Both the position numbers and the translations under genes were made by a program. Below the pieces are notes generated by a model. It worked only from the letters and a program-made list of their open reading frames with translations. It ran no database searches and was not told the DNA's origin. Positions 7,218 through 47,674 of a stretch of DNA of 64,000 bases are shown here, one piece after another. The number at the start of each line of letters is the position of its first letter. Positions within the stretch are counted from its first letter, which is position 1. Source of the stretch: Rhodothermales bacterium (GTDB taxonomy: Bacteria > Bacteroidota > Rhodothermia > Rhodothermales > VXPQ01); NCBI GenBank assembly GCA_951812345.1, contig OX638295.1, forward strand, positions 878,759 through 942,758, given 5' to 3'.

Positions 7218-7247
7218 ACGCGGATCGACACCATACCCTCTTTATTA

Positions 7248-7260
7248 GGATACTCTGATC
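7248..7260 (+). repeat. GGATACTCTGATC intergenic motif, copy 1
   Basis: Exact copy of a 13-bp sequence that recurs through the window; 30 bp upstream of the GH2-like lipoprotein start and in the same orientation. The following bases (AAAACC) are shared with the copy at 62325. Confidence 0.6.
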
Positions 7261-7290
7261 AAAACCATACATGCCGTCCCGGCAAATATC

Positions 7291-8631
7291 ATGAAATCAT
7301 CGCATTGCTCCATCGCGGGCCTGTTGCTGGCTGTCCTTGTTTTTTCGGGATGCCGGTCGAGTGCGGAAACCCCTTCCGCCGAAGGGCCGGTCAAGATGGA
7401 ACTGCGGCAGGTAGACGGCCGCTATGAACTTTTCAGGGATGGGGAGCCTTTTTACATCCACGGCGCGGGCCTTGAATTCGGCGATATAGAGCGATTGGCG
7501 CAGCACGGGGCCAATTCGTTCAGAACATGGCGTACGGACAACGGACGCGATACGGGCGACGAGGTGTTGCGCCGGGCCCATGAGGCGGGTCTGGTGGTTA
7601 CGATGGGCCTGGAGATCGCTCGGGAGCGCGAGGGCGAAGGACGGGGATTTTTCGGATTCGACTACGACGACGAAGAGGCTGTGGCGGAGCAACTCGAACG
7701 GATTCGGGCCGAAGTCATGCAGTACAAGGACCATCCGGCGTTGATCATCTGGGGCATCGGCAACGAACTTAACCTCGGCGCAACCAATCCCCGCGTCTGG
7801 GACGCCGTCAACGACATCTCGAAAATGATTCACGAGATCGATCCCAACCACCTGACCACCACCATGCTGGCGGGGATATGGCAGGAGCTGGCCGACGACA
7901 TACAAACACGAGCCCCCGATCTGGACCTGATCAGCATTCAGATGTATGCGGATATCGAAAATCTGCCCCGGTACATCGAAGAAATCGGATGGGAAGGGCC
8001 GTTCATGGTTACCGAGTGGGGCGCTACGGGCCACTGGGAGGTTCCGAGCACGCCCTGGGGGGCGGCCCTCGAAAACAACAGTTCCGTTAAGGCCGACGAT
8101 TACCTGAGGCGCTACCAGACCGTTATCGAACCCATGCGGGACCAGTGCGTGGGATCGTATGTTTTTCTGTGGGGGCAGAAGCAGGAGCGAACGCCGACCT
8201 GGTACGGCATGTTTTTGCCGACCGGAGAAGAGACCGAGACGATTGACGTAATGCATTACGTATGGAACGGGGCGTGGCCGGAGAACCGGAGCCCCCGTCT
8301 GGAGCAGGCTCTGCTTGACGGAAAGGAAGCGCGCGAAGGCATTTATCTTCACCCCGGACAGTCGTACGCGGCCCTGGTCTCGTCCGTCGATCCGGATGGC
8401 GATGCGCTGCGGTACGAATGGGAGGTGCGCCGCGAGAGCACGGCGCAAAGCACGGGAGGCGACGACGAGGAGGTTCCCGAACATATAGCAAACGCACTGG
8501 ACCGCGTGGATGCCCCGGAGGTCACGCTGACGGCGCCCGCCGAGGAAGGCGCGTACCGTCTCTTTGTCTATGTGTATGACGACGAAGGGCACGCTGCCCA
8601 CGCCAATATTCCCTTCTACGTCGAGTCGTAA
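7291..8631 (+). CDS. GH2-like TIM-barrel glycoside hydrolase, predicted lipoprotein
   Basis: Predicted exported lipoprotein (signal peptide ending in the lipobox VFSGC, cysteine near residue 21) with a catalytic TIM barrel related to glycoside hydrolase family 2. The acid/base glutamate is probably in IIWGIGNELNLG (about residue 155) and the nucleophile in VTEWGATGHW (about residue 240). A C-terminal immunoglobulin-like beta domain (about residues 350-446) may bind carbohydrate or act as a spacer. The usual GH2 N-terminal sugar-binding domains are absent, so this is a short derivative. The next gene starts 2 bp after the stop, implying cotranscription. Substrate unknown. Confidence 0.8.
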   Translation: MKSSHCSIAGLLLAVLVFSGCRSSAETPSAEGPVKMELRQVDGRYELFRDGEPFYIHGAGLEFGDIERLAQHGANSFRTWRTDNGRDTGDEVLRRAHEAGLVVTMGLEIAREREGEGRGFFGFDYDDEEAVAEQLERIRAEVMQYKDHPALIIWGIGNELNLGATNPRVWDAVNDISKMIHEIDPNHLTTTMLAGIWQELADDIQTRAPDLDLISIQMYADIENLPRYIEEIGWEGPFMVTEWGATGHWEVPSTPWGAALENNSSVKADDYLRRYQTVIEPMRDQCVGSYVFLWGQKQERTPTWYGMFLPTGEETETIDVMHYVWNGAWPENRSPRLEQALLDGKEAREGIYLHPGQSYAALVSSVDPDGDALRYEWEVRRESTAQSTGGDDEEVPEHIANALDRVDAPEVTLTAPAEEGAYRLFVYVYDDEGHAAHANIPFYVES

Positions 8632-38190: not shown

Positions 38191-38447
38191 ATAGGTTACG
38201 TACCGGTTGGAATTGCTTCGATGCTTCCCGGGGAATTCCAGAGAAGACCCTATCCTGATAAAATACGAAATTTGCCCCTGGATTGCAACTTTTCGGCGTC
38301 TTCCAAAAACTTCACAAGTCTTTGATATGCAAGGAATTAATGGAAAATTTCGTGAAGGGGTTATGGGGGAGGTCGGGAAATTGTCTGAATGTAAGATCGA
38401 AGGGATGGCTGAGTACTTTTTGTCCCTCGTGAGACGTTTCTTTTTTC

Positions 38448-38476
38448 TTGACTTCTGTGTCTTTATGTGCTATTAT
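38448..38476 (+). promoter_or_regulatory. sigma70-type promoter of the EcoRII-like methyltransferase
   Basis: TTGACT (38448-38453), exactly 17 bp, then TATTAT (38471-38476). This is a near-consensus proteobacterial-style promoter rather than the TTTG/TAnnTTTG pattern of Bacteroidota. It ends 20 bp before the ATG at 38497. Confidence 0.75.
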
Positions 38477-38486
38477 GTCACATAAA
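38462..38486 (+). promoter_or_regulatory. palindromic operator overlapping the -10 box
   Basis: TTTATGTG (38462-38469) and CACATAAA (38479-38486) form an 8-bp inverted repeat around a 9-nt centre containing the -10 hexamer. The downstream methyltransferase has an N-terminal helix-turn-helix; in M.EcoRII/M.SsoII-type enzymes that region is known to repress its own promoter through an inverted repeat. Autorepression here is inferred. Confidence 0.65.
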
Positions 38487-38496
38487 TTCCCAGCGA

Positions 38497-39780
38497 ATGA
38501 GTTTTATCATGCAATCCTCTCCGGCAGAAAACGGTTTTGCGCAACTACGGGAGCAGACTGGCTTGTCGGTTCAGAAACTGGCCAGGGAGATAGGCTTTTC
38601 CGCTCGGACGGTGTACCGCTGGGAGCGGGGTGAAACCTCTCCCCGCAAGGTAGTCATCGAACGCATGCAGAATCTTGTCCGGGAATCATCCCCCGGATAT
38701 TCAGGGCAACCGACCTTCAGATTCATTGACTTGTTTGCCGGCATAGGGGGATTGCATCGCGGCTTCGAGCCGCTTGGAGGAAAGTGCGTGTTCACATGCG
38801 AGTGGGATCGTTTCGCACAACTCACCTACAAGGCCAATTATACATGTGATCACGAGATTGCCGGAGATATAAAGGAAGTAGACGTCGATGCAATTCCGGA
38901 GCATGACCTGCTGCTGGCCGGTTTTCCCTGCCAGCCCTTTTCGATCGCCGGGGTATCCAAGAAAAATGCGCTGAATAAGCCGCACGGTTTTCGTTGCGAG
39001 GCGCAGGGGACGCTTTTTTTCGATGTGGCCCGGATTATTGAAAGACACCAGCCCCATGCGTTTCTTCTCGAGAACGTCAGGAATCTGGTAAACCATGACA
39101 GGGGGCGGACGTTTGGCGTTATTCGCAGGACATTGACGGAGGAGTTGGGGTACCGGATTCGCTGGAAAGTGCTGGATGCCCGCTCGTGGGTACCGCAGCA
39201 TCGCAAGCGCATTTTCATTGTCGGGTTTCGCGAGGACAACGGATTCGATTTCGACGACTTCTATTTTCCCGATCCGCTCACGGGACCTCGGCTGGATTCC
39301 GTTTTGCATCCGGAAGATGGTAGCGAGGCTGCGGAAGATCCGTATACGGTTGAGCCCGACGCCAGCGTTTCGGACAAGTATACCCTTTCCGATCATTTGT
39401 GGAACTATCTTCAGCGTTACGCCGAGAAGCATCGCGCCGCCGGGAACGGGTTCGGCTTCGGGCTGGTCGGTCCGCAGGATACCTCGCGCACGCTCTCGGC
39501 CCGTTACTACAAGGATGGATCGGAGATTCTGGTGAAACAGGAGGGGCGAAATCCTCGCCGCCTCACGCCGAGGGAATGCGCCCGGCTTATGGGTTTCGAC
39601 AACCCCGGAGAGAGCCGGTTCGTTATTCCGGTTTCCGATACGCAGGCGTACAGGCAATTTGGCAATGCCGTGGTCGTGCCTTGCGTGGAAGCGGTTGCGC
39701 GGCACATTGCGCCCTGGATCGACGTTGAAGTGGACGGGTACAGTACATTGCGCCAACGAAAGCTACGCCTCTTTGGCTGA
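38497..39780 (+). CDS. DNA (cytosine-5) methyltransferase with N-terminal HTH, EcoRII/Dcm-like
   Basis: 427 residues. Residues about 15-62 form an XRE-like helix-turn-helix (LSVQKLAREIGFSARTVYRWE), and the methyltransferase follows: motif I FIDLFAGIGGLHRGF (76-90), the catalytic cysteine C145 in GFPCQPFS, motif VI LENVRNL, and motif IX/X LTPRECARLMGF with QFGNAVVVPC. Partnered by Vsr and an EcoRII-type nuclease, it should methylate the inner C of a CCWGG-like site and protect it; the exact site is inferred from the partners. The HTH probably makes it its own repressor. Start could also be the ATG at 38509. Its 3' end overlaps vsr by 8 bp. Confidence 0.93.
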   Translation: MSFIMQSSPAENGFAQLREQTGLSVQKLAREIGFSARTVYRWERGETSPRKVVIERMQNLVRESSPGYSGQPTFRFIDLFAGIGGLHRGFEPLGGKCVFTCEWDRFAQLTYKANYTCDHEIAGDIKEVDVDAIPEHDLLLAGFPCQPFSIAGVSKKNALNKPHGFRCEAQGTLFFDVARIIERHQPHAFLLENVRNLVNHDRGRTFGVIRRTLTEELGYRIRWKVLDARSWVPQHRKRIFIVGFREDNGFDFDDFYFPDPLTGPRLDSVLHPEDGSEAAEDPYTVEPDASVSDKYTLSDHLWNYLQRYAEKHRAAGNGFGFGLVGPQDTSRTLSARYYKDGSEILVKQEGRNPRRLTPRECARLMGFDNPGESRFVIPVSDTQAYRQFGNAVVVPCVEAVARHIAPWIDVEVDGYSTLRQRKLRLFG

Positions 39781-40240
39781 TATTGTCGACAAGGCCACTC
39801 GAAGCCGCATGATGGCCGGTATCCGGGGCAAGGATACCCGGCCTGAAATGACGATCCGTCGCATGCTTCATGCACTCGGGTTTCGCTATCGGCTCCATGA
39901 TCCAAAACTGCCGGGCAAGCCGGATATGGTTTTTCCCGGCTGCCGCGCCGTGATTCTTGTTCATGGATGCTTCTGGCATTGCCACGATTGCCATCTGTTC
40001 AAATGGCCTGCTTCACGGGCCGATTTCTGGCGGCAAAAAATCACAAGGAACCGGGAAAAAGACGCTGAAACCATGAAAGCCCTGACAGCGGAGGGGTGGC
40101 GGGTATTGACGATCTGGGAATGTGCGCTCAAGGGACGTACCAGGCACCCGGTTGACGAGGTGGTGCGAAAGGCCGCTCGCTGGCTGCGATCCGACAACCG
40201 TTGTGAAGAAATACGAGGACGGGAGGATGATGGGGAGTGA
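39773..40240 (+). CDS. vsr: very short patch repair endonuclease Vsr
   Basis: 155-residue T:G mismatch endonuclease that nicks beside mismatches produced by deamination of 5-methylcytosine. I place the start at the TTG at 39773: it gives MADIVDKATRSRMM, the family's classic N-terminus, whereas the first ATG (39809/39812 region) would delete it. Catalytic and zinc motifs visible: LPGKPDMVFP (Asp), VILVHGCFWHCHDCHLFKWP and VLTIWECALKG. The start lies inside the last codons of the methyltransferase, so the two are translationally coupled. The stop is 25 bp from the stop of the convergent nuclease gene. Confidence 0.93.
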   Translation: MADIVDKATRSRMMAGIRGKDTRPEMTIRRMLHALGFRYRLHDPKLPGKPDMVFPGCRAVILVHGCFWHCHDCHLFKWPASRADFWRQKITRNREKDAETMKALTAEGWRVLTIWECALKGRTRHPVDEVVRKAARWLRSDNRCEEIRGREDDGE

Positions 40241-40265
40241 TTTGGCGAATAATAACTATTTGCGG

Positions 40266-41495
40266 CTACTCGCCTGTGCGGGCGTTTACGTATCGAATGA
40301 ATTCTTCAAGATTCCATAGCCAAGCCTGTTGGCCATCCGTATAAGTGTCCTGAAACGATTGCGGCACAACGAGTTGCAGGTTTGAATTTTCCATCTGGGT
40401 TGTCTGTGCCTCGGATATTCCCAACTCAAGCGTCAGAAGGTGTTTTCTCGGTATCTTCGACGCTTCGGTCAAAACCTGCCTCCAGCGATCCTTGCAGGTG
40501 GACTTGGCCCCGAGCATGGTCAGGTATGAATAATCGGTGTCAGGGGCGGCCCGATAGGCTTCCTCACTGGGAAACAGAAAGTCCGGTTTGTGCTTGTTCT
40601 CGGTCACGGCGCCACGGACGTACGCAATATTGCAGGACCGAAACACTGCTTCCAGATGATTTTCCAGAGAATAACCCATACGCGACTTTCTTCTGTTCTG
40701 GACACTCAGCGAGAACTTGATGAACCCGTCCACGTCGGTTCCATCTTCATTATGGAATCCCTCCTCGATTCGCTCCGAAACGATCCGTCGTTCAAGTCGC
40801 AAGAACAACGCTTTCTCATGAATCAGCCAATCTACAAGTGCTGCATCGGGATCATCCTCCGCCTTTACTTCGGGCAGGGTCATGCGCGCAAGCTTCGAGA
40901 ATTCCACTGTTCCCGGAAACTTCGTACCGAACTGCTCAATGATACTGTCAAGTTTATCCGCATCCGGCTCCTTGAACTCGATCCCGATCTCGTCAAGGAT
41001 GAAACGTGCGGCTCTGCCCAATTCGGTTTCGTCGTCCGCGAATTTCCGTGACACAAAAGATTGCCCGGTCGGGTTCAAGCCGAACAGCAAGGACAGTTGC
41101 CGTTCACTGGCCGAGCTTTCGGGAGCAACGATGAAGTACAGAAGCCCGTCGTTGTCCATCGCCAGAAACAACGTGTCACCTTCCCCCATCGCCTCCGTGA
41201 CCGAATTGGATGTATAGTAGAGACGCCATTCCGGATCCCGATCAGCCTTCTGTTTGCGTGCATCGTAGTGAGTCGCCTTGCCCTCTACCGTAAAGCCGTT
41301 CTGATCCTGTCCCAGCCAGACATATACCACCTGAAAACGGCGATGAACCTCGCCAAGAAACTGCTCCCGCATGGCCTGCGTAGTGCCGACTTCGTGCTGG
41401 TTTGATCTTTTAGGTTCTGCATCCACGGCGGACAGGCGCTTTACGCCTATCCCTGCGAAATAGTCACGCAACTGTCCACGTCTCATCGGTGTCAA
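40266..41495 (-). CDS. EcoRII-type restriction endonuclease
   Basis: 409 residues, close to the 404 of EcoRII, so both the N-terminal effector-site domain (about 1-190) and the C-terminal catalytic domain (about 230-409) are present. The catalytic part shows ENHLEAVFRSCNIAYVRGA, P304-D305 in HKPDFLFPS, K331 in MLGAKSTCKDRW, and the conserved KHLLTLELGISEAQT and LQLVVPQS. EcoRII cleaves CCWGG and needs two sites. Arranged tail-to-tail with vsr. The upstream 530 bp carry its promoter, not recognised by me. Lower GC than the housekeeping genes. Confidence 0.92.
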   Translation of the reverse strand: MTPMRRGQLRDYFAGIGVKRLSAVDAEPKRSNQHEVGTTQAMREQFLGEVHRRFQVVYVWLGQDQNGFTVEGKATHYDARKQKADRDPEWRLYYTSNSVTEAMGEGDTLFLAMDNDGLLYFIVAPESSASERQLSLLFGLNPTGQSFVSRKFADDETELGRAARFILDEIGIEFKEPDADKLDSIIEQFGTKFPGTVEFSKLARMTLPEVKAEDDPDAALVDWLIHEKALFLRLERRIVSERIEEGFHNEDGTDVDGFIKFSLSVQNRRKSRMGYSLENHLEAVFRSCNIAYVRGAVTENKHKPDFLFPSEEAYRAAPDTDYSYLTMLGAKSTCKDRWRQVLTEASKIPRKHLLTLELGISEAQTTQMENSNLQLVVPQSFQDTYTDGQQAWLWNLEEFIRYVNARTGE

Positions 41496-42025
41496 GTATC
41501 CAGTGTAGCCCCTGTGATTCGTCTTGCAGGAATTTAATGAACAATAAGGCGTCTTTCCCTGATTTCAGCAAAGGAGCGGTTTGAAACTCTTGGGAAATAA
41601 GGGAAGATTTGGGATGCCTGGGCGGATTTTGGCGGAATACAAGGTGTGCGGTTCCGATCTTGTTCCGACGCAATTAACCCAAGGGTGCGCATGTCATGAC
41701 GCACACGCAGAGCCCACGGGTCTTCGTTCAGGGTGAAGGTCGCTCTTTCCGCCATGCGCGGCGACAGCACGTTTGGTGAGCTCGCTTGGCTCGAATGATC
41801 CGTTTTTACTCCTTTTCGAGTAATTTTTATGGGAATCAGGCATGGGTGGTATGAAACAAACTCTCTGAAGCACTTTTGCATATCCGTTATTGCATACATG
41901 TCTCTGGAAGAGTGAAACCGTTTTCTTCAGAACAAAATTTGTCGTTGATCCGTATACTAAAAAGATAGAAACTGGGCCAAACCAGCGCCAACTTATCCAC
42001 CTTCAACAACGAACCTGAGCAAAAA
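41496..42025. other. 530-bp spacer where base composition shifts, possible decayed ORF
   Basis: Divergent spacer between the restriction endonuclease and the AT-rich gene. A 121-residue minus-strand reading (41534-41899) has no recognisable motif and mixed composition, and I do not call it a gene; it may be debris of an insertion. From about 41800 rightwards the sequence turns AT-rich and must hold the promoter of the gene at 42026 (TATACTAAAAAG near 41957 is a possible -10 region). Confidence 0.4.
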
Positions 42026-43105
42026 ATGCCTCACATACTTGCAGACGAATACCAGCAAAAATGCCCTATTTGGGGCACACCGGCACATGTCTCAGATTAT
42101 AATGGACATGTAAAAAAAGTTGTATCTCCACGTGTAGCAGTTCCATATTTAGTACATCGACTTGAGTTATTAGATGGAATGTTTGAATACATAGCCGATG
42201 ATGATGACCAACACAGAGCAAAACTTACAACAATGATTATTGACAAATCCAAAGAAGCAGGGTTACATAATGTTAGTGATAATTATGTCAGTCAAGCAAA
42301 GGAACAATCACTTCTTAAAGTTTCAAAACGTACAAATAGACTTCTTAAATATCTTGTTAACAAATCGGAAGAAAATTTAATAGGATATGAATTACATATT
42401 AATCCTGATAATCTTCAACAGGATATGGTACATTATTCTTTACATAAATATCTTAGCAGTGATGAATATATACAAAGTGTAAAAACATGTTATGAGGCAC
42501 TTGCATGGTCAGAATCAAGCACGTTACAAGAGCTTGGTTTCCTGATTGGGCAGTTGGAAGCTGCAAAATTAGTAGAAATTGTCAAAGTTTATGATCAAGG
42601 ATTATCATGCAAAGTAACACATCAAGGGTATCTAAAAACAGAACAGAATATTGTTAATAAGGATTCCTCGCAAGCCTTTGTTGCAATGTGGTTTGGTAAT
42701 GATAACGAAAGTATAGAAGAAATGGACAATCTGTACGATCATGGCATTGAGCAGGCTGTTAAAAATACTGGATATCAAGCATTGCGGATTGACAGGAAAA
42801 AAGATGTTGATAAAATTGACGATGAAATTATTGCAGAAATACGACGCTCTCGTTTTTTAATTGCGGATTATACGCATGGGTTAGATGGTGCTAGGGGTGG
42901 AGTCTATCATGAGGCCGGTTTTGCAGAAGGGTTGGATATTCCTGTTATTCGTTCATGTCGGAGTGATCAATTAGGCGATTTACATTTCGACATAAGACAG
43001 TATTACCACATCAAATGGGAAACACCTGAACAATTGAGACAAGAGCTTGAAGATAGGATACGTGCGCGGATAGGGGAAGGCCCTGAGATTGGTAAAGCCA
43101 GATAG
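42026..43105 (+). CDS. AT-rich protein with C-terminal nucleoside-2-deoxyribosyltransferase-like domain
   Basis: 359 residues. The N-terminal 200 are unrecognised: a CPIWGTPA stretch at 13-20, then a helical region and a winged-helix-like end. Residues about 215-345 match the nucleoside 2-deoxyribosyltransferase/TIR-like Rossmann fold found in several defence proteins: QAFVAMWFG, GYQALRIDRK, DEIIAEIRRSRFLIADYT, and GGVYHEAGFAEGLDIPVI with E296 as probable catalytic glutamate. Such domains act on nucleotides or NAD-type ligands. Codons are strongly A/T-ending, unlike every neighbour, so it is a recent arrival. It could be an abortive-infection effector; no partner is certain. Convergent with the methyltransferase operon. 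Confidence 0.75.
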   Translation: MPHILADEYQQKCPIWGTPAHVSDYNGHVKKVVSPRVAVPYLVHRLELLDGMFEYIADDDDQHRAKLTTMIIDKSKEAGLHNVSDNYVSQAKEQSLLKVSKRTNRLLKYLVNKSEENLIGYELHINPDNLQQDMVHYSLHKYLSSDEYIQSVKTCYEALAWSESSTLQELGFLIGQLEAAKLVEIVKVYDQGLSCKVTHQGYLKTEQNIVNKDSSQAFVAMWFGNDNESIEEMDNLYDHGIEQAVKNTGYQALRIDRKKDVDKIDDEIIAEIRRSRFLIADYTHGLDGARGGVYHEAGFAEGLDIPVIRSCRSDQLGDLHFDIRQYYHIKWETPEQLRQELEDRIRARIGEGPEIGKAR

Positions 43106-43231
43106 ATCAGCAGCCGTTTGTGTGGTATTCTATCATTCCTCCAAAAAAGAGAGAAATTAGGCTCAGAACGGCTTGTAAACCAAAGAGTGCAAGCAAACTG
43201 GAAGACACATCTGGATGGAGGTGGAGAATAT

Positions 43232-44275
43232 TTAGATACAAAAAGAGTTGGCATGCAGTCTAAGAATATGTTTACCAATTCGTTCTGCAAACCTGACTGG
43301 TACAGCATTGCCTATCTGCATAGCGATATTTTTGCTGGCCCCGAAAAATTCGTACCGATCAGGAAAGGATTGCAAGGCGGCTGCTTCTCGTAACGATATA
43401 GCCCGATTTTGGTTGGGATGTCCATATCGCCCATTAGATATACTGTTGCACCGCCCAGTGAGGGTAGGAGCAGGTCTATCCCATGCCATTCTTCCGTAGA
43501 CATCGGTATGGCCTTTGTAATTTCCCTTGTGACACTTCAGTATCAGGTCTTCTGGCCAAGATCTCCGATCTCCACCGTCGTGGGGTGTCTTACGAAGGCG
43601 TTCGAGGTTCAGTGCACTGATGGGTGCAGCTACGTGATTTGGTACTTCAGGGTCGGATTCTCCAGCAGAAATTTCGGGGAAGTGTGCAATGGCCTCGCGT
43701 ACAGTCTTGAACGTGCGCAGGGAATTTCCGTGACTTGGAGAAGGCAGTAGAAGCGGATTGTCATTCCGCGTGGCAAGTAACACAAGGCGACGACGCTGCT
43801 GAGGAACCCCATAGTATTTGGCATCAAGTATGCCGAATACGCACCGGTAGTCGTTTGTTTTCAGTGTTCTGATAAATCGGCGAAATGTGCTGAATCCTCC
43901 TATTCTGGCGATGCCGGGGACATTTTCCATCAACACGTATCCTGGCAATACGGCTTCCACAAGCCGTCCAAAATGCCACAACAATGTGGCATCTGGGCGC
44001 CGCCTATTGCCTCTTCGGTGGGCACTGAATGACTGACATGGGGCACATCCGGCAAAAAGAAAATCATTGCCTTTTCTTAATGGATTCTTCAGGCCCAAAT
44101 CTTGCGGGGCCATCTTTCGTATGTCTTTCTGAGAAAACTTCACACCTGGATTGTTGTATTCATAGGTACGACGGCAATGCTCGTCGTAATCGAATCCCTG
44201 CATGACATTTATTTCCGCGTCCAGAAGACCGCGGGTTAGTCCACCGGCCCCACAGAAAAAGTCAAAGGCTTTCAT
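43232..44275 (-). CDS. DNA (cytosine-5) methyltransferase, third gene of kinase-receiver operon
   Basis: 347 residues with a full set of C5-methyltransferase motifs: I FDFFCGAGGLTRGL (4-17), catalytic C80 in GCAPCQSFS, VI LMENVPGI, VIII QQRRRLVLLA, then a target region and IX/X ISLREAAALQSFP with QIGNAVP. Only distantly like the first methyltransferase in the window. No HTH extension. Its ATG overlaps the stop of the receiver gene (ATGA, 4 bp), so the two are translated together. No cognate nuclease is adjacent in the operon, making it either an orphan regulator or the modification arm of a system whose restriction arm is the kinase/receiver pair or the convergent gene. Confidence 0.93.
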   Translation of the reverse strand: MKAFDFFCGAGGLTRGLLDAEINVMQGFDYDEHCRRTYEYNNPGVKFSQKDIRKMAPQDLGLKNPLRKGNDFLFAGCAPCQSFSAHRRGNRRRPDATLLWHFGRLVEAVLPGYVLMENVPGIARIGGFSTFRRFIRTLKTNDYRCVFGILDAKYYGVPQQRRRLVLLATRNDNPLLLPSPSHGNSLRTFKTVREAIAHFPEISAGESDPEVPNHVAAPISALNLERLRKTPHDGGDRRSWPEDLILKCHKGNYKGHTDVYGRMAWDRPAPTLTGRCNSISNGRYGHPNQNRAISLREAAALQSFPDRYEFFGASKNIAMQIGNAVPVRFAERIGKHILRLHANSFCI

Positions 44276-45384
44276 GATGTTGTTTCCCCCTCTTCTCCGA
44301 TGTCTTCTACGATTTCCTTAGCCCACTTTAGAGTATTTCGATCTGGTAGGCCTGGCCGACAAGCAATCTGCATATATGCCCATGCTATCATTTCCCTGAA
44401 GGGACTGTCGATGGAAGCTACGCGATGAAACTCTTTATCAGAATCCTTGTCGCCGATTTTGCCAATAGATATCATATCCAGATTTCGTAAATTTGCCGCC
44501 ATGGTAGGAATATGTTTTTCCAGAGCGGGAAAAGGAATAATGGAACCTTGGTATCCTTGGTTTAGCAATGCCCTAGGTAGATCACCTTCCATTTCGTCCA
44601 GTTTAGTTTTCCATAAAGTCGTTGACTTGAGACCAACCTTCATAGAACAACACTTGGCAACTAAAACATCCTTTACCTTCGGCTTGCGCCCTATGGATAC
44701 GAGATCACAGGATGGACTAAGAACTACACGAAAGGCATTGGGCTTATTGCAATCCGCTCCCTTCTCCATGAGCAAATCACCCATCTGAATATTGTTGCTT
44801 ATCGGGGGAAACAGATACAATTCCCAAGGAGCAAGTTTGGCATCACCCCCTAACGGTTCGTCCATCAATGCGGCAATGCGCCGTCTTCCAGCGCGCTTGA
44901 TCTTCTCAATGCGTTGCCCAGAGTCGCTGAAGGTTTCAAAAGCATAAGGTGCAATATCTTTCATTACTCCGGCAAAGCACTTGCGAAGTTCCTGCTCCGC
45001 TTCTTGGATTACTTCCACATGTGAACGAAACATTTCGATTGTCGAACATAATTTATCAATAGTTTTTCCTCCTTTATCTATGTTCTCCACAAAGGGATTA
45101 GAAAGGTATTCATTGCCCTGAATTCGACCCGAATAAGCAGAATACACTATTACAGGGCAGAAGTGATCCTTCCATATAAAATCGAGTATTTCACAGCCAC
45201 TCATATCGCCCATGCTAGATTCGCTAGACGCGAGGTCAAGTATCACGATGTCAGGACGAAAAGTGCAAATGGTGTCTTTGGCTTCATTAAATTCACATAC
45301 TTCAGAAGTTGCACTCATCCGAGTAATTCTTTTACGAATGGGTTCTATAGCATCTGGCTGATCTTCAATAAATAATACTTTCAT
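44272..45384 (-). CDS. receiver-domain protein with unrecognised C-terminal domain
   Basis: 370 residues. Residues 1-115 are a response-regulator receiver with all key positions: E7-D8, phosphoacceptor D50 in IVILDLAS, S82 in VYSAYS and K104 in IDKGG. A helical linker follows (about 115-175). The C-terminal domain (about 185-350) is not a DNA-binding domain I know; it contains FRVVLSPSCDLVSIG (about 218-232) and VLVAKCCSMKV, which could form a metal or catalytic site. It begins 19 bp after the kinase stop and overlaps the methyltransferase by 4 bp. It probably receives phosphate from the kinase encoded upstream, and its C-terminal domain would be the output. Confidence 0.85.
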   Translation of the reverse strand: MKVLFIEDQPDAIEPIRKRITRMSATSEVCEFNEAKDTICTFRPDIVILDLASSESSMGDMSGCEILDFIWKDHFCPVIVYSAYSGRIQGNEYLSNPFVENIDKGGKTIDKLCSTIEMFRSHVEVIQEAEQELRKCFAGVMKDIAPYAFETFSDSGQRIEKIKRAGRRRIAALMDEPLGGDAKLAPWELYLFPPISNNIQMGDLLMEKGADCNKPNAFRVVLSPSCDLVSIGRKPKVKDVLVAKCCSMKVGLKSTTLWKTKLDEMEGDLPRALLNQGYQGSIIPFPALEKHIPTMAANLRNLDMISIGKIGDKDSDKEFHRVASIDSPFREMIAWAYMQIACRPGLPDRNTLKWAKEIVEDIGEEGETTS

Positions 45385-45403
45385 CGCCTGTACCTTTGGG
45401 GTT

Positions 45404-47605
45404 TTATTTATTTTTCTTCAATGGCAGATCGAAGGCGAATAAAGCACCTTTTTTATTACCGAGATATTGGGTTGACATTTGCCCTTTGTATGCAGCAACT
45501 ATTTCCGAAGCCACAGTGAGACCCATGCCGATACCACCAGGCTTGCTTGTTACACCAGGCCAGAAAATTTCCTCCAATTTTTCTTTTTCAATACCCGGGC
45601 CGGTATCTCGAACACTCACTTGGACACGGTCCGTATCATGAATTGGGGTGACAAGAAATGTTAGTTCTCTGTCGATTTTGGAAACATCGCTCATCCAATA
45701 AATGGCATTCGTCAGAAGGTTCAGAATAATTGCATCTAATTCACCTGGATCCACTGCGACCTCGGTTGTCGAATCGGGAACATTACACCGGATGCCCTTG
45801 CTTCGGATGTTATTTTTGTGAAGTTCCAGACACTCTCGGATTTGTTCTTCAAGAATCGATGGCCTTTTTCGCCGACTAAAAGTGCGGCTTGCCAACGGGG
45901 CAAAGGTGTTGGAAAGATGCTCAAGTGCATCGACGGCTTTATCGGCATGTTTGAATTCGTCTTCAAAATCCGCGTCCTTGAAAGGAGTGAATCTTCTTTT
46001 GACGAAATCAAGCAAACTACCGAAGGCGATTGTTCTATTCCGAATTTCATGTACCAGCATGTTAGCAATAGTTCCCACAGTCGCAAGGCGGCTGTAGTAT
46101 ACAAAATGTTTCTGAAGAGTCTTGGATGTTGATGTAATAGAATCGATATAATCCTCGGTTACAGAGACGATTTCCGATGTATCTGCACCTTGCTCCGAAA
46201 GGGCTGTTATTTTTTCCAGAATATCTCCGCTCGACAATTTCCCGAATAAATCCTCCAGCGGCCTTTCATTGCTTGGTTTTACTCGATCTGTATCACGTTC
46301 CACCTCAAGAAGGGTCACGATGGCCTTCAGGATTTCTTCGAATTCACCCACTTCGAGGCATTGAGCAAGCCGCTCTCTGTCGCTTGTGTCCTTGATTTCT
46401 GCATTCTCTTGTGCGGAAATTGAAACGTATCCCACGATCTGGCTAGTACTTAGTCGTGTTCCGATTCTACTGATACGCCTGAGGTCAAGACCCAACCAAT
46501 CGCGTACATTTTCGGATTTCGGAAGTACGAGAATCCCATCTCGATATACGGAGATGCCTTTATGGGCTCGAATTGCTTTTCGGATCTGGTTCTTTTGTAG
46601 ATTGAAGCGTCTGGCTATTTCCGATGTGTCGTTCGTAGCAATGTCCCACGTCCTGATCTCGAAATCAAATGATCCACAATGTGCCGTTGCAGGATCATAG
46701 GGATAACGCGTACGCTCTTGAATAAGTTCGTAGATCCGCTCCCAAGGATAATGTACTTTTTTGTCTCTGGGGGCATTCCCTTCAATTGGGGCATAACGGT
46801 ATGTTCCTTGAACATTCCCTCTTTTGTCGACATGGCCTCGAATACTGTATTTCGGCCTAGATAAGAATTCGAGAGATGATATCTCCACTTCTTCTATTTT
46901 GGCTTGACCCTGACCGGGGTGCGAAAGAAATATTCTAAAGTCACCTACACCCGAAAATGGCGAGATCAGGCGCGCAAGGTTCTCCTCCAAGTCATATATA
47001 CGATTTATATCCCATGGCCTTGACAGACCATAGATGCGGAGACGAGTACCAGACGAAAAGGGTGGTTCATCGGTATAACCTTTGCATTCGACAAAGCTGT
47101 CCGAAATATTTTCTCCCTCCGACATACCAGACCAATTGACAGACACCTCCCAACAGTTACCGTCAGGAGCCTTCGTCAGCATCTTAAGGCGTTGTCCAAG
47201 CCGTGCTGCGGAGAGTCGTCCGAGGCCCTTTTCACCGGCGACTCGGCGTTGTTTGCCGCCTTTTCTGGCGAATGGATTTTGCGTCTTGTACGGAGTGGCC
47301 ACAACACACCAGACATCTTCGATGATTTGCTTGGTCATGCCGTGCCCATCGTCCTCAATTTCCAGATAAAATCCTTCTTTCGGATCGTTGTCGAATCGTA
47401 AATGGACGGTCGATGCAAAAGCGTCGTATGAGTTTTTCACCAACTCGATGACAGCCACCACATCATTGGTCACCAGATCAGCACCTAACGCAGCGAATAC
47501 ACGCGGATGCATGCGAAAAGGTATACGCTCTGGCTCGTTCAATATGGATGCTACCTGTGCCATTGCCAACTGTCGTGCAAATACCAAACTATCCCAAAGT
47601 ACCAT
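45404..47605 (-). CDS. dual GHKL protein: MORC/Hsp90-like ATPase fused to histidine kinase
   Basis: 733 residues. N-terminal GHKL ATPase: E54 and N58 in AVIELVKNSYDA, D86 in DDGHGM (85-90), and the lid EKGLGRLSAARLG (125-137). A transducer-like S5 region follows (about 345-415: ISVYRDGILVLP, DWLGLDLRR, RLSTSQIVGYV, and DTSDRERL). Then a complete histidine kinase: H519 in LVHEIRN, N-box NLLTNA (629-634), G1 DTGPGI (667-672) and G2 GIGMGL (691-696). No transmembrane segment, so cytoplasmic. The ATG at 47605 is used; 47563 is the alternative. First gene of an operon with the receiver and methyltransferase, divergent from the TonB receptor by 69 bp. MORC-like ATPases are known in restriction-modification neighbourhoods; this fusion is unusual. 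Confidence 0.88.
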   Translation of the reverse strand: MVLWDSLVFARQLAMAQVASILNEPERIPFRMHPRVFAALGADLVTNDVVAVIELVKNSYDAFASTVHLRFDNDPKEGFYLEIEDDGHGMTKQIIEDVWCVVATPYKTQNPFARKGGKQRRVAGEKGLGRLSAARLGQRLKMLTKAPDGNCWEVSVNWSGMSEGENISDSFVECKGYTDEPPFSSGTRLRIYGLSRPWDINRIYDLEENLARLISPFSGVGDFRIFLSHPGQGQAKIEEVEISSLEFLSRPKYSIRGHVDKRGNVQGTYRYAPIEGNAPRDKKVHYPWERIYELIQERTRYPYDPATAHCGSFDFEIRTWDIATNDTSEIARRFNLQKNQIRKAIRAHKGISVYRDGILVLPKSENVRDWLGLDLRRISRIGTRLSTSQIVGYVSISAQENAEIKDTSDRERLAQCLEVGEFEEILKAIVTLLEVERDTDRVKPSNERPLEDLFGKLSSGDILEKITALSEQGADTSEIVSVTEDYIDSITSTSKTLQKHFVYYSRLATVGTIANMLVHEIRNRTIAFGSLLDFVKRRFTPFKDADFEDEFKHADKAVDALEHLSNTFAPLASRTFSRRKRPSILEEQIRECLELHKNNIRSKGIRCNVPDSTTEVAVDPGELDAIILNLLTNAIYWMSDVSKIDRELTFLVTPIHDTDRVQVSVRDTGPGIEKEKLEEIFWPGVTSKPGGIGMGLTVASEIVAAYKGQMSTQYLGNKKGALFAFDLPLKKNK

Positions 47606-47674
47606 TTTCGCCGTCTCGGGTTTCCCATCCAAGGCATCCCCCCGGAACCTTTCCCGGTGCTGCGCGAAAATAAG

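Follow-up and report, generated by a model that had tools for sequence, protein, structure and literature searches.

The window analysed here is a 64,000-nucleotide stretch of the genome of a Rhodothermales bacterium (contig OX638295.1, positions 878,759 to 942,758), and within it three minus-strand genes encode, in close succession, a histidine kinase (HK), a response regulator (RR) and a DNA methyltransferase (MTase) (Table 1). The gap between the HK and RR genes is +19 bp and that between the RR and MTase genes is -4 bp; the coordinates and spacing given in an earlier note on this DNA were confirmed.

Table 1. Coordinates of the trio, the island that carries it and the neighbouring genes
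Feature	Position in window	Strand	Description
HK	45404-47605	minus	GHKL ATPase (paraMORC-like, HATPase_c_3), middle region, H-box with H519 and histidine-kinase ATPase; 733 aa
RR	44272-45384	minus	Receiver, residues 1-125 (D50), and predicted C-terminal MazF/CcdB-fold output domain, ~197-345; 370 aa
MTase	43232-44275	minus	C5-cytosine DNA methyltransferase; 347 aa
Acquired island	38369-47630	none	9.26 kb; flanked by the region upstream of gyrA and by the gene of a TonB-type receptor
Dcm-like MTase with HTH	38467-39780	plus	Neighbouring EcoRII-type restriction-modification (R-M) set
Vsr	~39770-40240	plus	Neighbouring EcoRII-type R-M set
EcoRII-C nuclease	40266-41495	minus	Neighbouring EcoRII-type R-M set
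TIR-like gene	42026-43105	plus	359 aa; same island

The trio and its island

The locus is a defence island that has been acquired, at a site of variable content, as indicated by its absence from same-genus genomes, its base composition and its content of R-M and TIR genes. The segment 38369-47630 is missing from one genome of the genus whose flanks are 95-96% identical to those in the window, and also from a second whose flanks are mostly ~92% identical; its G+C content is 0.48, against 0.60 for the flanks, and the kinase is present in one of six genomes of the genus. The defence-island setting proposed earlier therefore holds, with an EcoRII-type R-M set and a TIR-like gene as its other contents. 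In place of the island these two genomes carry other DNA, 2.3 or 1.85 kb long (L141 12806-15101 and L142 14337-16189), with a protein of 291-292 aa common to both. Given the other genes at this site, the gyrA-TonB interval appears to be a hot spot for insertion.

The Dcm-like methyltransferase of the island is 50% identical to E. coli Dcm, and the first 230 residues of the EcoRII-C nuclease have no Pfam match. Because the EcoRII-C, Dcm and Vsr genes make up a complete R-M unit by themselves and are rarely found near the kinase, in a few loci only, we did not adopt them as parts of the trio. The trio itself holds no cognate nuclease, the nearby EcoRII-C and Vsr being paired with the second, Dcm-like methyltransferase. 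The TIR-like gene was likewise rejected as a fourth component, as it is in none of the relative loci. The C-terminal part of its product matches a PADLOC model for TIR effectors (E 2.5e-11), with a weak match to Nuc_deoxyrib_tr as well, the G+C content of the gene is 37% against 60% for the flanks, and it is probably a stand-alone defence effector.

The kinase carries two GHKL modules, HATPase_c_3 (residues 50-162, E 1.5e-18) and, towards the C-terminus, HATPase_c (619-730, E 1.9e-22). By motif inspection both are intact, the first with E54/N58, DDGHGM at 85 and GEKGLGR at 124, the second with an N box at 629-633, G1 (DTGPGI) at 667 and G2 at 690-696, and H519 lies within LVHEIRN. A simple hydropathy scan found no hydrophobic segment of transmembrane strength (maximum 1.53 over 19 residues), in keeping with the cytoplasmic dual-GHKL kinase described before. 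Homology to relatives begins near residue 15, so the start may be at 47563 (719 aa) instead of 47605; no clear ribosome-binding site precedes either of the two. The receiver of the RR is near-canonical, with E7, D8, D50, S82 and K104 all present, D8 and D50 invariant and K104 kept in 80% of 55 aligned homologues, and its best Pfam match is PF00072 at 29.3 bits against a cut-off of 30.2. The expectation that the kinase and receiver residues are intact was thus borne out. The methyltransferase has all the C5 motifs (PCQ, ENV, QRRR, REAA and GN), and in this respect the trio resembles a type II R-M system from which the cognate nuclease is absent.

A kinase-centred neighbourhood

A search with the RR yielded few relatives, and a kinase profile was needed to gather the family. 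It retrieved 529 relatives in GTDB genomes, the best 80 of which were kept, together with 38 in viral contigs, and 117 kinase loci were chosen without regard to neighbours from these best 80 of 529 and the viral contigs. The kinase is directly followed by a gene on the same strand in 108 of the 117, and that gene carries the RR output domain in 78 of the 108, of which 68 were recognised by a profile built from 40 of the same sequences that this count covers and 10 by a [T/S]PxCD motif alone. C5 methyltransferases are concentrated around the pair, their density falling ~23-fold from 1.61 per 10 kb in the nearest 2.5 kb to 0.07 at 2.5-8 kb, and that of Vsr falls likewise, from 0.93 per 10 kb to 0.05 further out. 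Among the loci with an RR output gene and enough flanking sequence, a C5 methyltransferase is near in 51 of 64, any methyltransferase in 56 and Vsr in 32; N6/N4-type enzymes take the place of C5 in some kinase subclades. The trio therefore recurs in other genomes, and the claim of a two-component circuit tied to DNA methylation is upheld at the level of conserved gene neighbourhood.

The kinase of the window belongs to a clade of 11 (SH-aLRT 100) that spans Bacteroidota, Planctomycetota, Chloroflexota, Actinomycetota, Myxococcota and Thermodesulfobacteriota as well as viral contigs. The gene order in this clade is mostly Vsr-HK-RR-MTase, with methyltransferases most like that of the trio. In one viral contig a phage terminase gene adjoins the quartet, so the unit is mobile and in part phage-borne; members of the wider kinase family are carried on plasmids and phage contigs.

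Two further arrangements were seen among the relatives. In one subclade (L058, L065, L106, L108, L114 and L119) the RR is short, at ~210-240 aa, and consists of the receiver only, and a conserved gene of ~190 aa is also present, directly after the RR in L114; here the output function may reside on a separate protein. In L021 a gene for a base-excision glycosylase of the HhH-GPD type (7233-7949), a family found in five loci, lies between the methyltransferase and the kinase, which fits repair of deaminated methylcytosine, like Vsr elsewhere.

The earlier note had suggested either phosphorylation-gated restriction or sensing of the methylation state. In the first case the kinase and RR would turn on a nuclease upon the entry of foreign DNA, such as Vsr in most close relatives or EcoRII-C in the window. 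Vsr does adjoin the kinase in most of the closest clade, and EcoRII-C, Dcm and Vsr are found not only in the window's island but also near the kinase in L042, L053, L070, L083 and L084. However, Vsr is present in only half of the well-flanked loci, and its known role is the nicking of T:G mismatches. The EcoRII-C of the window is paired with a Dcm-type methylase of its own and can be understood without the trio, which in turn has no nuclease domain, and the predicted output domain of the RR described below is of another kind. We therefore regard gated restriction as improbable; the evidence on methylation-state sensing, which is more favourable, comes from the fused kinases considered later.

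The system had been put forward as undescribed, and in this it was mistaken. Bellieny-Rabelo et al. (2021; PMC8011034) described the neighbourhood as the HEF_HK/Response_reg_2 system (PF19191, PF19192). In that paper the kinases have the architecture HATPase_c_3, HEF_HK and HATPase_c, 91.6% of them are linked to Response_reg_2 proteins, and the neighbours include C5 methyltransferases, Vsr and EcoRII-C; its authors suggested a connection with paraMORC ATPases and with the control of R-M. The available portion of the text assigns no output domain and no further domain to the RR, and reports no EcoRII-N reader. The window shares with that system a soluble kinase, as judged by the hydropathy scan, with HATPase_c_3, an H-box and HATPase_c, adjoining a receiver protein and with a C5 methyltransferase near, and differs from it in retaining a near-canonical receiver. 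PF19191 has no match in the window HK at E<=1 and none in the genome, PF19192 has none in the window RR, and the two were therefore rejected as the family of the window clade; in the wider family they match 4 of 51 kinases and 3 of 104 RRs, respectively. Three loci with true PF19192 proteins read MTase-HK-RR, with a methyltransferase of the same type as that of the trio (E 1e-77 to 1e-82). Their RR ends have a GD...CxxCD...RxG pattern in common with the window family, and a profile-profile comparison of the C-terminal regions (P 6.6e-5, probability 64%) provides moderate evidence of relationship, so that by sequence the 2021 family seems to share the RR output domain. The window clade is most aptly described as a sister to the HEF_HK/Response_reg_2 system that is missed by its Pfam models. 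As to whether the genes match a named defence family, the neighbourhood is thus published, while PADLOC-DB 2.0 has no system-naming model over the kinase or the RR (weak partial matches to REase_II at 24 bits and SduA at 15.9 bits) and assigns the trio methyltransferase to the general models MTase_II and DruM.

The N-terminal GHKL ATPase of the window HK, with its motifs intact and its C5-methylase and Vsr neighbours, also recalls the paraMORC ATPases, of GHKL type, that Iyer, Abhiman and Aravind (2008; PMC2292703) described in R-M operons. The window unit differs in having neither helicase nor nuclease, and has in addition a histidine-kinase core and a partner with a receiver, neither of which appears in the 2008 paper.

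The output domain of the response regulator

The most informative part of the trio, which the earlier note did not identify, is the C-terminal region of the RR. No Pfam family and no known DNA-binding domain were found in it, and a structure search with the whole RR returned matches to the receiver only, for which reason the C-terminal part was modelled by itself, using the C-terminal 240 residues together with 40 relatives (pLDDT 92, pTM 0.81). All of the top 50 Foldseek matches of this model in the PDB are MazF (probability 0.99-1.00), and the top 50 of VIA-align likewise consist of MazF and CcdB structures, with Z up to 10.5 and rmsd 2.4-2.6 over 100-101 residues; in a viral structure library the model found endoribonuclease and PemK-like matches at E 1.4e-3 and 1.5e-3 only. 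A profile-profile comparison with MazF gave P 5.5e-4 over 101 columns, which is not strong, compared with 0.017 or worse for eight unrelated control profiles, and the other RR subfamilies gave no sequence support for the link. As a prediction, then, a MazF/CcdB toxin fold for the output domain has good support, and this predicted fold is new here.

Sharing the fold does not extend to MazF-type RNase activity, which is not supported. None of 40 RR members scanned matches the Pfam PemK/MazF family, no clear counterparts of the catalytic Arg and Thr of MazF could be read by eye from the sequence alignments, and no antitoxin gene adjoins the RR. The resemblance to MazF/PemK and CcdB lies in the predicted fold, here with a receiver attached. 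The domain nevertheless has strongly conserved residues: in the homologues P224 and C226, within a PxCD motif at 224-227, are invariant, and Y190, G202, D227, R343, G345 and P347 are nearly so. Judged from this conservation, the invariant PxC has, together with Asp, Arg and Gly residues that are nearly invariant, the appearance of a functional site.

These observations bear on the main rival of the alarm that we favour, namely a regulatory circuit in which the phosphorylated RR would control the expression or activity of the methyltransferase and neighbouring R-M genes, with the barrel acting only as a platform for binding nucleic acid or protein. Two-component systems usually regulate transcription, and such a circuit would accord with the strong association with methyltransferases and R-M genes and with the lack of recognisable MazF catalytic residues. 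Control of R-M is also what the 2021 authors suggested (PMC8011034). On the other hand, the RR has no known DNA-binding domain, and the apparent functional site at PxC speaks against a mere platform. We consider such a regulatory role rather unlikely.

Detocs is a further two-component system, whose output is a phosphorylase domain. Like Detocs, the trio pairs a histidine kinase with a receiver in the context of defence, but it has no phosphorylase-type output, the predicted MazF/CcdB-fold domain and the methyltransferase standing instead; the distinction from Detocs drawn at the outset was sound.

Site readers on kinases and a possible alarm

Evidence on what the kinase might sense comes from relatives in which an EcoRII-N domain lies N-terminal to it, in L076 (Flavobacterium, E 3e-17) and L087 (a Chitinophagaceae MAG, E 1.5e-17). 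Scanning 397 genomes of the family to which L076 belongs, we found nine with EcoRII-N-like sequence, three in frames of kinase length and five of nuclease length, and among them two further fusions, L169 and L170, each followed by an RR. In all four fusion loci the EcoRII-N kinase comes directly after a Dcm-type methyltransferase, and the methyltransferases in L076 and L087 share 52-53% identity with E. coli Dcm and have its target-recognition block. On the kinase tree the fusions fall at three or more separate positions, L053 being a further, weaker case. Among the nuclease-length frames, L171 is an ordinary EcoRII-N/EcoRII-C enzyme with Dcm and Vsr next to it. As this is the usual partnership of EcoRII-N, the four relatives resemble an EcoRII-type R-M system (Dcm-like methyltransferase, EcoRII-N/EcoRII-C nuclease and Vsr) and differ from it in having a kinase and receiver protein instead of the nuclease part, as if such a system had exchanged its nuclease for a kinase. 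These four loci are new here, and in a search of open-access papers no system came to light that combines EcoRII-N with a histidine kinase, or MazF with a receiver and abortive infection. We infer by analogy with EcoRII that the EcoRII-N of the fused kinases reads CCWGG, the site that the Dcm-type methyltransferase is expected to mark, and it is here that the suggestion of methylation-state sensing gains support. The domain could also be regulatory or specific to those loci, and most kinases of the family, that of the window included, have no fused DNA reader.

Other N-terminal extensions were observed on kinases of viral contigs. Those of L104 (7611-7994) and L109 (7611-7991) match no Pfam family and are perhaps another DNA reader; L095 (7356-7988) and L096 have a related extension, and the Duganella kinase L053 seemingly carries both the latter and an EcoRII-N-like part.

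Over gated cutting we favour, as a tentative reading, a methylation-checking alarm that switches on the toxin-fold output. Its computed basis is the gene set, the intact motifs, the conservation and mobility of the unit, the predicted output fold and the EcoRII-N fusions beside Dcm-type methylases; from these we infer a trigger in unmethylated sites, phosphotransfer and a toxic output. The MTase would mark the cell's own sites, and the soluble GHKL kinase would detect the cognate site when unmethylated, whether on incoming phage or plasmid DNA or upon loss of the methylase. As the window kinase has no fused reader, it would have to sense DNA through its GHKL or middle region or through a partner. 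The kinase would then autophosphorylate at H519 and pass the phosphate to D50 of the RR, whose MazF/CcdB-fold domain would be released or activated, and the cell would be slowed or stopped. The whole would amount to an R-M system that, in place of cutting, signals to an effector of toxin fold.

The same parts would serve equally for post-segregational addiction or the keeping of an epigenetic state, where loss of the cell's own methylase is punished and phage are not the target. Carriage on plasmids and phage contigs would suit such a role, and R-M systems are known for this behaviour, which is discussed in the 2021 paper (PMC8011034); the defence-island setting in the window speaks against it, and we think it a distinctly unlikely primary function. 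For the methylation-checking alarm, a broader form can be offered more hesitantly: a widespread R-M-like immunity in which a DNA-site-reading histidine kinase stands in for the nuclease and, on encountering foreign or unmethylated DNA, imposes cell arrest by a phosphorelay to a MazF/CcdB-fold effector, with the methyltransferase as the antidote.

In conclusion, the observation of a kinase, receiver and methyltransferase unit is confirmed and its interpretation partly supported, the locus being a variant of a known, functionally unexplained neighbourhood. If the proposed mechanism is true, it would join three strands of bacterial biology, namely the recognition of self by methylation as in R-M, two-component phosphorelay and toxin-type abortive infection. 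It would also provide the first function for the kinase-receiver-methylase neighbourhood that the 2021 paper reported in hundreds of bacterial strains without giving it a mechanism.
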